Below, piece after piece: positions 35,647-44,967 of a DNA stretch of 64,000 nt. Below the pieces are notes generated by a model that made no database searches, was not told the origin of the DNA, and worked only from the letters and a program-made list of their open reading frames with translations. The stretch spans positions 372,001-436,000 of the forward strand of contig JAMLGI010000001.1 in NCBI GenBank assembly GCA_023958085.1, in the 5' to 3' direction. The stretch is from Solirubrobacterales bacterium (GTDB lineage Bacteria; Actinomycetota; Thermoleophilia; Solirubrobacterales; 70-9). Position 1 is the first letter of the stretch; the number at the start of each line of letters is the position of its first letter. Both the position numbers and the translations under genes were made by a program.

Positions 35647-35696
35647 CCCGGTTCAGGCGCCGGGGGCGTTCCGGCGGCGCGCGGATAGGCTCTTAG

Positions 35697-35785
35697 CGGA
35701 GAGGGTGGGATTCGAACCCACGAGGCGAGAGATCCCGCCCACGCGATTTCCAGTCGCGCTCCTTAAGCCGCTCGGACACCTCTCC
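35697..35785 (-). tRNA. tRNA-Ser(GGA)
   Basis: Class II tRNA with a long variable arm. Acceptor GGAGAGG/CCTCTCC with discriminator G, anticodon loop CTGGAAA (anticodon GGA), T arm GTGGGTTCGAATCCCAC. CCA is not encoded. Confidence 0.95.
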
Positions 35786-35924
35786 GGGAGGGGAAATCCT
35801 ACCCAAGGTCGCCGACCTGTGGCGTCCGCAACCTGCGAACCGGTGATGCGGCGGCGAAACCGTCCCGGGACGCGATTCCGGGGCCGGACTCCGGCAGACG
35901 AGCCCCGGCAGGGCGAACTTCAGG

Positions 35925-36011
35925 CGGAGGGGGTGGGATTCGAACCCACGGTACCCCGAAAGGCACAACAGTTTTCGAGACTGCCCGATTCAACCACTCT
36001 CGCACCCCTCC
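35925..36011 (-). tRNA. tRNA-Ser(CGA)
   Basis: Class II tRNA with a long variable arm. Acceptor GGAGGGG/CCCCTCC with discriminator G, anticodon loop CTCGAAA (anticodon CGA), T arm GTGGGTTCGAATCCCAC. It lies upstream of the tRNA-Ser(GGA) gene on the same strand. Confidence 0.95.
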
Positions 36012-41355: not shown

Positions 41356-41393
41356 GAACCGGCGTCCGACGGGCGCCACCGGTTCCGGTGAGA

Positions 41394-41438
41394 CCCCGGA
41401 TTCCCGCAACAGGTGCGGGAATCCGGGGTTTTCTCTTT
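41394..41438 (+). terminator. intrinsic terminator after the CocE-like gene
   Basis: Perfect 15-bp stem (CCCCGGATTCCCGCA with TGCGGGAATCCGGGG, loop ACAGG) followed by TTTTCTCTTTTT. The best classical terminator in the window. Confidence 0.93.
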
Positions 41439-41543
41439 TTCGCCGGTCGCCGATGGCCTCGCCGGGCGGGTCATGCATGTGAGCTTTCGGTCCCGCCATC
41501 GGCTCGCCGCATCCCGAGTCTCCCGTTACCCTGTCTCTTTCGG

Positions 41544-42332
41544 ATGATTTTCCGTCGACTGATTCCCCTCCTCGCCCTGGCCCTGATTTCGGCCGGGCTT
41601 CTGTCCCCTGCCGGTGCATCCGGTGCGCTCTCGGTGCCTCAGCCCGATCCGCCGAATGTCAAGGAGCCGGTCAACAAGGGGCAGGTCAAGCGGGCAACCC
41701 GTCGGGCTCTCTGGATTGCCCGCCAGCAGCTCGGCCTCGCGGTGAGCGAGCGTCGGGGCGACAACGTTCCGCGTTATCGCAACGGCAAGGGGCGAATCGC
41801 CCCGTTCTCGATCTCGGACCAGTGGTGCGTGGCCTTCGGCACCTGGGTCTGGAACCGGGTCGGTTTCCGTGACTATCTCGGAGCCAGGTACATCTGGAAG
41901 TCCCACGATGGAACCCGGGTGGCGATCCAGGTGACCGACATGTCGCTCTGGGCCAAACGCACCGGACACTGGTCCGCCCGGGCCAAACCGGGTTACCTCG
42001 TGGCCTACGACTTCAGCCACATTGGCCTGGTAACCGGGGCCAACCGTCGGGGGCAGGCGGTCTGGGCGATCGAGGGCAACAAGGGCAACCGGGTCCGCAG
42101 GGTCCGGGTGCCGATGGCCAACGTCACCGGGTACATCAGCCCGGTTCGGCTCTCGAAGCAGCAGATCGTCAACGCCATCGCCAATCCGGACATGGTCGTC
42201 CCCGAGCCGATCGCGGAAGACCCGGAAACCTTTGCGCGCAGCCCGGAGATGATGCCCGAGACTGTCCTTCCGGACATCGGTTCCCTCCCGGAAACCCCGG
42301 GAGACCGCGGCCCCTCTACCGGCCGGCCCTGA
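41544..42332 (+). CDS. secreted CHAP-domain protein
   Basis: A 262-residue protein with a signal peptide (FRRLIPLLALALISAGLLSP, cleavage near GASGA). The CHAP-like fold shows Cys95 in SDQWCVAFGTWVWNRVG and His159 in YDFSHIGLVTG, the usual catalytic pair of peptidoglycan amidases/endopeptidases. Residues 220-262 are a Pro/Glu-rich tail. It probably cuts wall peptides. The frame opens at 41388, inside the terminator, so the ATG at 41544 is used. Confidence 0.82.
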   Translation: MIFRRLIPLLALALISAGLLSPAGASGALSVPQPDPPNVKEPVNKGQVKRATRRALWIARQQLGLAVSERRGDNVPRYRNGKGRIAPFSISDQWCVAFGTWVWNRVGFRDYLGARYIWKSHDGTRVAIQVTDMSLWAKRTGHWSARAKPGYLVAYDFSHIGLVTGANRRGQAVWAIEGNKGNRVRRVRVPMANVTGYISPVRLSKQQIVNAIANPDMVVPEPIAEDPETFARSPEMMPETVLPDIGSLPETPGDRGPSTGRP

Positions 42333-42353
42333 GCCGAGCTGGGTCAGGGAAAC

Positions 42354-42566
42354 TCAGGCCGCTGGCTTCAGGGGGACCCGTGAAGCCTCGATCGAGAATC
42401 CAGCCCGCCCCAGGGTCTCTTCGCAGAGGGGGAGCCGCTCGAGCGCCCGTGGTTCTACCTTGATCGCACCGCCACCGTGGCTCTTGCCGACACCGACGAA
42501 ACGCTCGGTCGTCGCCGAGGCATTCAGCACCTCCCAGAGTTGACCGGTGGAAAACCGTACGTCGCC
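42354..42566 (-). pseudogene. 3' remnant of an N6-adenine DNA methyltransferase gene
   Basis: About 70 codons in good frame: LWEVLNASATTERFVGVG and HGGGAIKVEPRALERLPL are like the extreme C-terminus of TaqI/Eco57I-type DNA methyltransferases (the K-[IV]-E-P-x-[AE]-L block). No methylase core lies upstream; the frame runs straight into a tRNA-like fragment and then antisense of the ATPase. Seen as a truncated gene end. Confidence 0.5.
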
Positions 42567-42612
42567 TTCAGTGGCGGGGATTCGAACCAGCGACCTCTCG
42601 CAGGCGAAGCGA
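42567..42612 (-). other. tRNA 3'-half fragment (possible attachment-site remnant)
   Basis: On the minus strand TCGCTTCGCCTGCGAGAGG followed by TCGCTGGTTCGAATCC resembles an anticodon arm, variable loop and T arm. Its T stem does not pair (GCTGG opposite CCCCG), so it is not a working tRNA. It shares 21 identical bp with tRNA-Val at 43946-43966. Confidence 0.6.
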
Positions 42613-42614
42613 CT

Positions 42615-42683
42615 TGGTCCAAACGGATGATAGAACGTGGTCCAAATGGATGGTAGAGTCTGGTCCTCATGGATGAAAGAGGG
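42615..42683 (+). repeat. three 23-bp tandem repeats over the ATPase start codon
   Basis: Units at 42615, 42638 and 42661, each exactly 23 bp, each starting TGGTCC and containing ATGGATG- or CGGATGA-like cores and (G)TAGA/AAGA ends. The third unit includes the ATG at 42669. They look like operator iterons. Confidence 0.75.
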
Positions 42684-43931
42684 AAAGACCGTTACCGGAG
42701 AAGGCTGATCGATCCCCTTCTCGACGAACTTGCGTCCCAGTTGTCCGGGCTGATGATCGTCGGACCGCGGGGGGCGGGCAAGACCACCACGGCCGAACGA
42801 AGGGCAAACACGGTGGTCCATCTCGACCGGAAAGTCGAGTCGGCCGCATTCAGGGCGGACCCGGATGTCGCCTTGAAGGGGCTGAAGGAGCCCATCCTGC
42901 TGGATGAGTGGCAGGCGGTGCCGGAGGTCTTCGCCGCCGCGAGGCGAGCGATCGACCGCCAAGCCTCGCCCAGCCGCTTCTATCTCACCGGGTCGGTGAT
43001 GGCCGAGTACCGCTTCGACGTGTATCCGGGCACCGGCCGCATCCAGCGGCTGGCGCTGTATCCAATGACAGTTCGTGAACTCGAGGGACGGGTGGAAGGA
43101 GACACCTTCCTTGACCGGATCGCCCGGGGTCACCCGATTTCACTACCTGCACACATTCCGGACCTGCGTGGGTATATCGACCTCGCGCTGGCCAGCGGCT
43201 ACCCGGTTCCCGCCATGCATCTAACGGGCCGCTCCCACGAAACCTGGCTTGAGGACTACGTCGAGTCGCTAATAAACAGGGATCTCGAACAGTTCGGTGC
43301 CGAAGGACCGGGCCGTCGTCGTGACCTGGAAAAAGTGAGGAAGTATTTCGAGGCCTCGGCTCTCAATACCGCCGGGGTCATTGACCAGAGCCGTATTCAC
43401 CAGGCGGCGTCGGTATCCAAACAGACCGGAGGATCCTATGAGCAGCTGCTTTCCCGCCTGATGGTGATCGACCAGGTGCCGGGGTGGCGTTCCAACCGGC
43501 TCAAACGCCTGACCAGCCAACCGAAGCGATACCTGATCGATCCGAGCCTGGCCGGGGCCTTGCTCCGGCTCGATGCCGGCGCGGTGTTGGCTGATGGAGA
43601 CATGCTCGGCAGGATCCTGGATACGTTCGTGATGGCGCAGCTGCGCCCGGAAACTGCCATTTCACGGTTTCGTCCACGGATCTACCACCTGCGTACCAAA
43701 GGTGGTCGTCAGGAGATCGACCTGCTGGTCGAACTGGCCGGTCAGAAGTTGATCGGGATCGAGGTCAAGGCCAGCGCCGCGCCCGATCGATCAGACGCCC
43801 GCCACCTCGCCTGGCTGAGAGATCAGGTCGGCGACCGGTTCATTGCCGGAGTCGTGCTTCACACCGGACCGCGGACCTACCAGCTCGATGAGAAGATCAT
43901 GGCTGCCCCGATCGCCGGTCTCTGGGGCTGA
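42669..43931 (+). CDS. AAA-type ATPase with C-terminal DUF4143
   Basis: A 420-residue protein. Walker A IVGPRGAGKTTTAERRA, Walker B PILLDEWQAVPEV, sensor-like FYLTGSVMAEY, and arginine-rich YPGTGRIQRLALYPMTVREL. The DUF4143 domain (about residues 190-420) ends with a PD-(D/E)xK-like core: GRQEIDLLVELAGQKLIGIEVKAS. These ATPases are common in mobile accessory regions; function unknown. No ribosome site; TAGAGT lies 9 nt before the ATG, so the message may be leaderless. Its stop abuts the 3' end of tRNA-Val with no gap. Slightly lower GC and more CGA/ATA-type codons than neighbours suggest transfer. Confidence 0.88.
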   Translation: MDERGKDRYRRRLIDPLLDELASQLSGLMIVGPRGAGKTTTAERRANTVVHLDRKVESAAFRADPDVALKGLKEPILLDEWQAVPEVFAAARRAIDRQASPSRFYLTGSVMAEYRFDVYPGTGRIQRLALYPMTVRELEGRVEGDTFLDRIARGHPISLPAHIPDLRGYIDLALASGYPVPAMHLTGRSHETWLEDYVESLINRDLEQFGAEGPGRRRDLEKVRKYFEASALNTAGVIDQSRIHQAASVSKQTGGSYEQLLSRLMVIDQVPGWRSNRLKRLTSQPKRYLIDPSLAGALLRLDAGAVLADGDMLGRILDTFVMAQLRPETAISRFRPRIYHLRTKGGRQEIDLLVELAGQKLIGIEVKASAAPDRSDARHLAWLRDQVGDRFIAGVVLHTGPRTYQLDEKIMAAPIAGLWG

Positions 43932-44003
43932 TGGGCACGGCTGGTTTCGAACCAGCGACCTCTCGCGTGTGAAGCGAGCGCTCTCCCGCTGAGCTACGCG
44001 CCC
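43932..44003 (-). tRNA. tRNA-Val(CAC)
   Basis: Acceptor GGGCGCG/CGTGCCC (one G-T pair), discriminator A, anticodon loop TTCACAC (anticodon CAC), T arm GCTGGTTCGAAACCAGC. CCA is not encoded. The 3' end touches the stop codon of the convergent ATPase gene. Confidence 0.95.
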
Positions 44004-44076
44004 GGGAACAGGGTCCAATCATAGATGGGCGGCAGGGTTGGTGGCTCGACGTGAAGCGGCAGTTCGGCGGCGGCTC

Positions 44077-44967
44077 TCAGGCCACCAGGCTGGTCTCGGC
44101 GGCCCGGTCGGTTTCGGGGACCAGGGGCTGTGAGACCCGGGAGTCGGTCCAGTGGGCGATCCAGTCGAGCGTGTCCTCGGGGCACTCCGCCTGGGGATGG
44201 TGGCCGATCTCATCGAGGATCGTCTCATCGGCCTGGGGAAAGACCCGACGGACCCCTTTCATGGTCCGGCCGGCCGGGACCAGCCGGTCACGATCCCCGA
44301 TCAGGGCCGCCACCGGGCCACGGTAGGGGATCTCCTCGAACGGCTTTCGCGAGTGCCGGCGGAGGATGTTCATGCCCTGGCGGATCCCCGGGACCATCGT
44401 GATCCGACCCGCAACCAGCCGTTCCAGCAGCGGGTCGGAGAGATCCTGGGCGTGGGTGAAGAGCCGCCGATAGACCTCACGGACAACCGGTCGGAACTGC
44501 ATCGCTCCGGGGGCGGTTCGACCGAGCAGGAACTCGACCTCTGGACGCCCGAGGAACTGGGCCAGCGGTACCGGTCCAAAACCGGCCGGGGCGATCAGCA
44601 GGAGGCCGCTCGTCAGTTCCGGGCGCCCGCCGGCAACCACGCTGGCCACCGCCCCGCCGAGTGAATGCCCGAGCAGGAAGCAGTTGCCGATGTCCAGTTT
44701 CTTCAGGGCCCACTGAAAGAGCTTGCGCCACTCCTCGAGGTCATATCCGGCCGGAGTGCTCTCGCCGAACCCGGGCAGATCGAAGGCGACTGTGGGCCGT
44801 GAGATTGAGCGGGCGAACGGATCCCAGCCGGCCGCGCTGTCCATCAGCCCGTGCAACATCACGACCGGGCGGCCGCGACCGGAGGTTCTTCTCATCCCCA
44901 GTCGGCTGCGCCCCAGAACAAGCTCTTCCTGAACCGGATCGGTCATCCCCCGGGGATTCTTCCGCAA
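44077..44967 (-). CDS. alpha/beta hydrolase
   Basis: A 296-residue alpha/beta hydrolase. Oxyanion block VVMLHGLMDSAAGWDPFA, nucleophile FLLGHSLGGAVAS, Asp in ALIGDRDRLVPAG, His in EIGHHPQAECPE. The cap region (about residues 145-215) is Arg-rich. Cytoplasmic esterase or related hydrolase; the substrate is unknown. A second in-frame ATG at 44946 (MTDPVQEEL) is also likely. It follows another hydrolase on the same strand, 21 nt downstream. Confidence 0.85.
   Translation of the reverse strand: MRKNPRGMTDPVQEELVLGRSRLGMRRTSGRGRPVVMLHGLMDSAAGWDPFARSISRPTVAFDLPGFGESTPAGYDLEEWRKLFQWALKKLDIGNCFLLGHSLGGAVASVVAGGRPELTSGLLLIAPAGFGPVPLAQFLGRPEVEFLLGRTAPGAMQFRPVVREVYRRLFTHAQDLSDPLLERLVAGRITMVPGIRQGMNILRRHSRKPFEEIPYRGPVAALIGDRDRLVPAGRTMKGVRRVFPQADETILDEIGHHPQAECPEDTLDWIAHWTDSRVSQPLVPETDRAAETSLVA

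Follow-up and report, generated by a model that had tools for sequence, protein, structure and literature searches.

Gene-private 23 bp promoter repeats of an AAA_14-DUF4143 ATPase-nuclease gene in a tRNA-Val insertion slot suggest control of the gene by its own product

When a gene lies between an intact tRNA and a partial copy of the same tRNA, is it the cargo of an integrated element, or does the interest of the locus lie elsewhere? The question is raised by an AAA_14-DUF4143 ATPase gene (42669–43931, plus strand, 420 aa) in a 64,000 nt stretch of contig 1 (JAMLGI010000001.1) of a Solirubrobacterales genome, G000; this whole stretch is referred to below as the window. An earlier note, made from the sequence alone, described the layout as that left by integration at a tRNA 3' end and overlooked three 23 bp tandem repeats situated between the tRNA fragment and the ATPase gene. 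The tRNA setting is an ordinary insertion hotspot and the promoter repeats are the new point; comparison of ~90 relatives suggests that the proteins of this family recognise such repeats in their own promoters, which offers a testable clue to the control of the family.

Tandem repeats upstream of the ATPase gene

The repeats run head-to-tail on the plus strand from 42615 to 42683 in the register common to the family. Repeat 1 (TGGTCCAAACGGATGATAGAACG, 42615–42637) and repeat 2 (TGGTCCAAATGGATGGTAGAGTC, 42638–42660) are followed by a degenerate repeat 3 (42661–42683), which crosses the ATPase ATG at 42669. A pattern scan of the whole G000 genome allowing 3 mismatches returned the three copies and one isolated match with 3 mismatches.

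The upstream regions were compared across 105 homologues, the window's own gene being one of them and the others ~29–64 % identical. These were taken from relatives and named genomes and belonged to the Actinobacteria, Chloroflexi, Proteobacteria, Acidobacteria, Planctomycetes and other phyla; a few loci that represented one genome fetched twice were removed from the covariation work. The best upstream repeat period was 23 bp in 86 of the scored homologues, and significant upstream repeats had a period of exactly 23 bp in 66 of 70. Upstream self-identity at a lag of 23 was 0.474 for 102 homologues, a level approached at no other lag, whereas the 595 control genes, which came from the same loci, gave 0.275; a segment of at least 65 % identity at this lag was present in 74 % of the 102 homologues and 1.3 % of the control genes.

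Arrays phased without protein information followed the common grammar YG-NNNN-ANA-NNGGTANT-N6. The repeat frame, including a -10-like TANNNT element, is shared among homologues and positions 3–6 are private to each gene. The repeats overlap both the -10-like element and the start codon of their own gene. Elsewhere in the fetched loci of the phased homologues, a gene's own repeats recurred only twice, as isolated matches on the same strand.

This distribution bears on the idea that the repeats mark an end of a self-moving element, with the ATPase-nuclease as a transposase-like (TnsA/TnsC-like) protein acting on its own iterons. From general knowledge, AAA+ plus PD-(D/E)XK chemistry together with 22–23 bp tandem sites recalls the ends of Tn7, and the gene is found at >50 % identity across phyla. 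However, a Tn7-like transposon has repeats at both element ends, whereas in the window's family a gene's own repeats lie upstream only: no copies, direct or inverted, were found at the 3' side of the ATPase gene in the phased homologues tested, and the two isolated same-strand matches were the only further copies in either orientation. Likewise, no viral-contig relatives of the ATPase were confirmed. The repeats were rejected as element ends given the 3' side without copies, and a self-moving element is considered very improbable.

The second full-length DUF4143 ATPase gene of G000 (locus L002, 1495–2766; G000:C1, ~100.7 kb), which is ~33 % identical and not near a tRNA, has its own, different 23 bp-spaced repeats that are not significant alone. 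At locus L028 (1492–2923), 23 bp repeats of a divergent DUF4143 ATPase begin ~13 bp past the 3' end of a tRNA-Phe, in the orientation opposite to that of the window. The distant DUF4143 genes at L266, L270, L029 and L035 have, by eye, palindromic and not tandem repeats just upstream of the start, and operator architecture may vary by DUF4143 subfamily. Promoter repeats of the AAA_14-DUF4143 family were not found described in the open-access full-text literature, which is weak evidence of novelty.

Covariation between protein residues and repeat positions

Shuffle-corrected mutual information was calculated between the 420 protein columns and the repeat positions for 69 genes. The highest values were obtained for residue 345 and position 4 (0.89 bits), residue 344 and position 5 (0.80 bits) and residue 252 and position 13 (0.69 bits), the next listed value being 0.51. 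Residues 343–345 (codons at 43695–43703, plus strand) form a three-residue hypervariable patch within the nuclease-domain motif H-L-R-xxx-G-R-x-E-x-D, which is elsewhere almost invariant, and co-vary with repeat positions 4–5. Residues 250–252 (codons at 43416–43424, plus strand) are placed by the structure model at the beginning of the second helix of the helix-turn-helix (HTH), the recognition helix, and co-vary with positions 11–14. In the main set, K or R at residue 344 was paired with C at position 5 without exception; H345 was paired with C4, N345 with T4 and Q345 with G4, nearly without exception.

Since related proteins share related promoters, mutual information can be inflated, and the repeats might instead be operators of an unrelated host regulator, the covariation being phylogenetic noise. 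On an 89-tip tree, K, R or A at residue 344 occurred with C5 in 29 of 29 cases, and the three exceptions had C alone. Each of the two characters changed ~10 times, with 12 joint changes compared to ~21 if they were independent. Because the A class at 344 was added after the first set had been inspected, and because tip shuffles are an unfair control for relatedness, the tree argument rests on this count of coincident changes. Among sister pairs, the DNA at position 4 differed in 10 and residue 345 differed in all 10 of these, while in the 21 pairs in which the residue was unchanged the DNA was also unchanged (21/21), ranking this pairing second among the 420 columns. In a held-out set of new homologues (<85 % identical), residue 344 predicted position 5 in 12 of 15 cases, the best of 2000 shuffles reaching 11, and K/R/A344 occurred with C5 in 8/8 cases compared to 2/9 for other residues. 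Co-change at ~10 separate places in the tree, the held-out support and the location of the top residues in two plausible DNA-contact sites all argue against an unrelated host regulator, which we regard as highly unlikely.

From these comparisons we infer that the ATPase reads its own promoter repeats through specific recognition, with residue 344 in the nuclease-domain loop and residue 252 in the recognition helix marking the two plausible DNA-contact sites.

The ATPase-nuclease and its proposed mode of control

The ATPase had Pfam matches above cut-off to PF13173 AAA_14 (E 2.6e-12) and PF13635 DUF4143 (E 2.8e-33), and was assigned to PDC-S01, a PADLOC single-gene phage defence candidate (Pfam AAA_14-DUF4143, COG1373), through a full-length match to profile PDLC04790 (residues 8–419 of 420, E 5.2e-94). 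Its closest named homologue is from a Solirubrobacterales metagenome-assembled genome. The Walker A and B residues G37, K38, T39, D79 and E80 (each conserved in no fewer than 135 of 141 homologues) and the PD-(D/E)XK residues E349, D351, E365 and K367 (each in at least 136 of 141) are all present in the window's ATPase.

The predicted structure (predicted local distance difference test, pLDDT, 93.8) comprises an AAA+ domain, a winged helix and a PD-(D/E)XK domain. The best structural matches of the AAA+ domain and winged helix were the MNS-type archaeal AAA+ ATPases 2qen and 2fna in the PDB (Z 14.4 and 13.9, ~250 residues, root-mean-square deviation 4.3–4.5), followed by CED-4 and plant NLRs. 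The archaeal proteins align to residues 5–300 only, at ~15 % sequence identity, leaving the PD-(D/E)XK domain outside the match, and no convincing sequence relatives were found in the PDB. The C-terminal domain folded alone (pLDDT 91.3) matched the PD-(D/E)XK nucleases McrC (Z 9.3, 118 residues, 3.1 Å), Can2 (Z 9.2, 117 residues, 3.9 Å) and EndoMS (Foldseek E 7.5e-4). Unlike the single-protein ATPase-nuclease of the window, McrBC divides its ATPase and nuclease between two proteins; Can2 differs in being activated by cyclic oligoadenylate. The window's ATPase is best described as a putative laterally spread single-gene AAA+ ATPase-nuclease, with predicted nuclease function. At another locus (L003, 1501–1608), a short DUF4143-like remnant has as its neighbours a nucleotidyltransferase-like open reading frame (ORF) and another ATPase-like gene, which is intact (386 aa), an arrangement that resembles a decayed cluster.

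In the part of the published account drawn on here, PDC-S01 is an ATPase fused to PD-(D/E)XK that ranks fourth in frequency among defence candidates across prokaryotes; its copies number tens of thousands, its mechanism is not known, and phage-protection experiments are pending for most PDCs (PMC12988326). PDC-S01 has been found to be very common in the rumen (PMC13356809). The same part of the first account mentions no promoter repeats or DNA specificity. The window's gene lies beside a tRNA and not in a recognised defence island.

Under the proposed mechanism, the ATPase-nuclease would bind the 23 bp tandem repeats overlapping its own start codon, with the HTH recognition helix reading the 3' part of each repeat and the hypervariable three-residue loop beside the PD-(D/E)XK active site reading the 5' part. 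Most likely, several protomers would sit side by side on the array, covering the -10-like element and the start codon and silencing their own gene. A threat or trigger would then remove the bound protomers, relieving repression and freeing the ATPase-nuclease for a putative nuclease action in defence. The array is similar to that of RptR, a phage-defence-island repressor that binds its own promoter at three direct repeats, the -10 box being overlapped by two of them (PMC12255303). RptR, however, is a separate repressor protein of small size that uses a single conserved site (TAGCTA), whereas the window's effector would repress itself through a site that varies from gene to gene. In Thermus thermophilus HB27, the AAA_14-DUF4143 gene TT_P0211, a distant homologue of the window's ATPase, showed a 6.6-fold rise in the wild type in the presence of plasmid DNA (PMC4406477), a response that fits inducible expression. 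This is suggestive only, because a plasmid DUF4143 gene of Thermus thermophilus, TT_RS11170, which may or may not be TT_P0211, had only weak upstream repeats.

The same loop could also be taken to mean that the protein cuts or initiates at the repeats, making them cleavage sites or plasmid-type iterons and not operators, since the residues reading positions 4–5 adjoin an intact nuclease active site. Self-cleavage of the chromosome would be toxic, however, and the sites coincide with the start codon and the -10-like element of their own gene, mostly on chromosomal contigs, and are rare elsewhere nearby. We consider cleavage sites or iterons improbable.

The best explanation as a whole is an ATPase-nuclease with its own operator of self-recognised 23 bp repeats, likely self-repressing, the gene being situated in a tRNA-Val insertion slot; we place the probability of this explanation at roughly 70 %. 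Several results weigh against it. Around one-quarter of the homologues have a weak 23 bp array or none, and distant ones have 22 bp or palindromic repeats, while no consensus sigma-70 promoter or terminator was found within 42500–44100. A scorable array was present in just 19 of the 35 held-out homologues; among these, residue 252 predicted position 13 in 16 of 19, equal to the shuffle maximum and hence marginal. The pairing of residue 345 with position 4, which holds in the main set, fails in the more divergent held-out set (6/10), and strict rules for residues 345 and 250 were rejected as not general on the basis of the held-out homologues. The pairing of residue 344 with position 5 ranked only 49th of the 420 columns in the sister-pair test, probably because E and Q both pair with G. 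In addition, the preference for repression over activation or cleavage comes from the overlap of the repeats with the -10-like TANNNT and the start codon.

A private promoter array combined with a residue-to-base code would provide a first molecular handle on PDC-S01, indicating what is bound, where, and which residues choose. If the explanation is true, the nuclease domain has a second role in reading, with specificity, the operator of its own gene, and paralogues within one genome stay independent since their sites differ. A wider proposal, for which we see about even odds, is that PDC-S01 proteins are self-reading ATPase-nucleases whose loop and HTH helix read a gene-private 23 bp array, each copy being independently addressed and self-silenced. 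The array may then act as a sensor as well as an off-switch, the complex being released by invader DNA or proteins, and the pairing of loop and base would constitute a recognition code.

The tRNA-Val slot

The tRNA-Val(CAC) is intact at 43932–44003 on the minus strand and, as the earlier note had it, the ATPase stop codon (TGA, 43929–43931) directly abuts the discriminator base at its 3' end. The tRNA-derived repeat was likewise recovered (42578–42612, minus strand, compared to 43943–43977; 35 nt, 89 % identical, 21 nt exact). The chance expectation over 100 shuffles was no match for this repeat, and the local alignment of fragment and tRNA gave p ~0.002, the floor of 500 shuffles. The description of the fragment as a broken tRNA 3' half is correct as to its origin but not its extent, which runs from the T-loop to the anticodon stem only, the acceptor stem being missing. 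The reported absence of an integrase or recombinase was borne out among the ORFs listed at 42332–44003 and in the neighbouring genes scanned. By contrast, the supposed DNA methyltransferase end, a 66 aa ORF (42357–42554, minus strand), had no Pfam match, no plasmid match and elsewhere only weak matches (E~0.01), and is treated here as a remnant ORF of unconfirmed identity. The other boundary of the variable slot is a conserved secreted-protein gene (41388–42332, plus strand), CHAP-like by eye and without a Pfam match.

Synteny of this boundary gene with tRNA-Val was seen in 11 of the 18 genomes of the genus, in which the two bracket 0.5–14 kb of differing cargo. Tandem tRNA-Val 3' fragments that retain the acceptor end, unlike the fragment of G000, are found in other genera. 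Because of this variable cargo, the tandem tRNA-Val 3' fragments and the truncated tyrosine-recombinase ORFs of relatives, the slot was identified as an integration hotspot. Sites without the ATPase and without the fragment, which the earlier note had named as a finding that would favour insertion, were found in related genomes: the gene next to tRNA-Val is a VOC gene in G006 and, as the only cargo, a SnoaL gene in G007. The order in G008 (conserved gene, small ORF, VOC gene, repeats, ATPase, tRNA-Val) corresponds to a G006-like order with the ATPase unit added. The G000 and G008 ATPases are sisters (support 0.998), whereas the flanking gene does not place these genomes as sisters. The identity of the two ATPases (63 %) is close to that of a neighbouring gene (68 %), and the ATPase may have been inherited vertically or acquired separately in the two genomes.

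Could the ATPase be the one gene left of an integrative element that has decayed, with tRNA-Val and the fragment as attL and attR and an integrase that was lost or acted from outside? The confirmed layout and tRNA fragment, the hotspot character of the slot, the truncated tyrosine recombinases and clean tRNA-Val 3' fragments seen in relatives, and the G006 and G007 sites are all consistent with this. However, in G008 the sister ATPase meets this tRNA at an identical base and no tRNA fragment was detected in the slot (alignment p=0.63), an acceptor end, as retained by a clean attR, is missing from the G000 fragment, and no tRNA is located within 500 bp in 100 of the 105 homologues, those with one being the window's own and four others (L027, which is G008, L028, L086 and L108). 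A decayed element is possible but doubtful; it concerns the arrival of the gene, is compatible with the operator model and does not exclude it. The part of the earlier note's reading that holds is that the 3' side of tRNA-Val receives insertions; that the two tRNA copies delimit an ATPase element is not supported, in view of G008 and of the other homologues, and an outside recombinase for the ATPase is neither shown nor required.

Given G006 and G007 without ATPase or fragment, the G008 ATPase without a fragment and a family that is not tRNA-linked, the tRNA frame reflects hotspot traffic rather than the end of an ATPase element. As part of the best explanation, the G000 fragment is a remnant of this integration traffic and not a functional end of the ATPase unit. 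The locus resembles tRNA-integrated genomic islands in its position at a tRNA 3' end, its tRNA-derived direct repeat and its variable cargo, and differs from them in having no integrase, a repeat that stops at the T-loop without the acceptor end, and a sister locus without the repeat. Targeting of tRNAs as a family trait was rejected, there being ~1 tRNA per 40 kb around the 105 homologues.

Several further observations were made in and around such slots. At locus L088 (2608–6820; G021:C41), a stretch of 4.2 kb contains a tandem series of four tRNA-Val copies or 3' fragments, with a tyrosine phosphatase gene (PF13350) among the cargo, as if small islands had accreted there repeatedly. At L097 (1008–2379) and L091 (7029–8301), in other genera of the family, tRNA-Val fragments have beside them truncated ORFs whose N-terminal domains are those of tyrosine recombinases. 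The tRNA-Val slot of G011 (L261, 659–9289) has four long ORFs sharing similar repeated motifs, an apparent tandem expansion. Elsewhere in the window, two tRNA-Ser genes (GGA and CGA) are near each other on the minus strand at 35696–36011.
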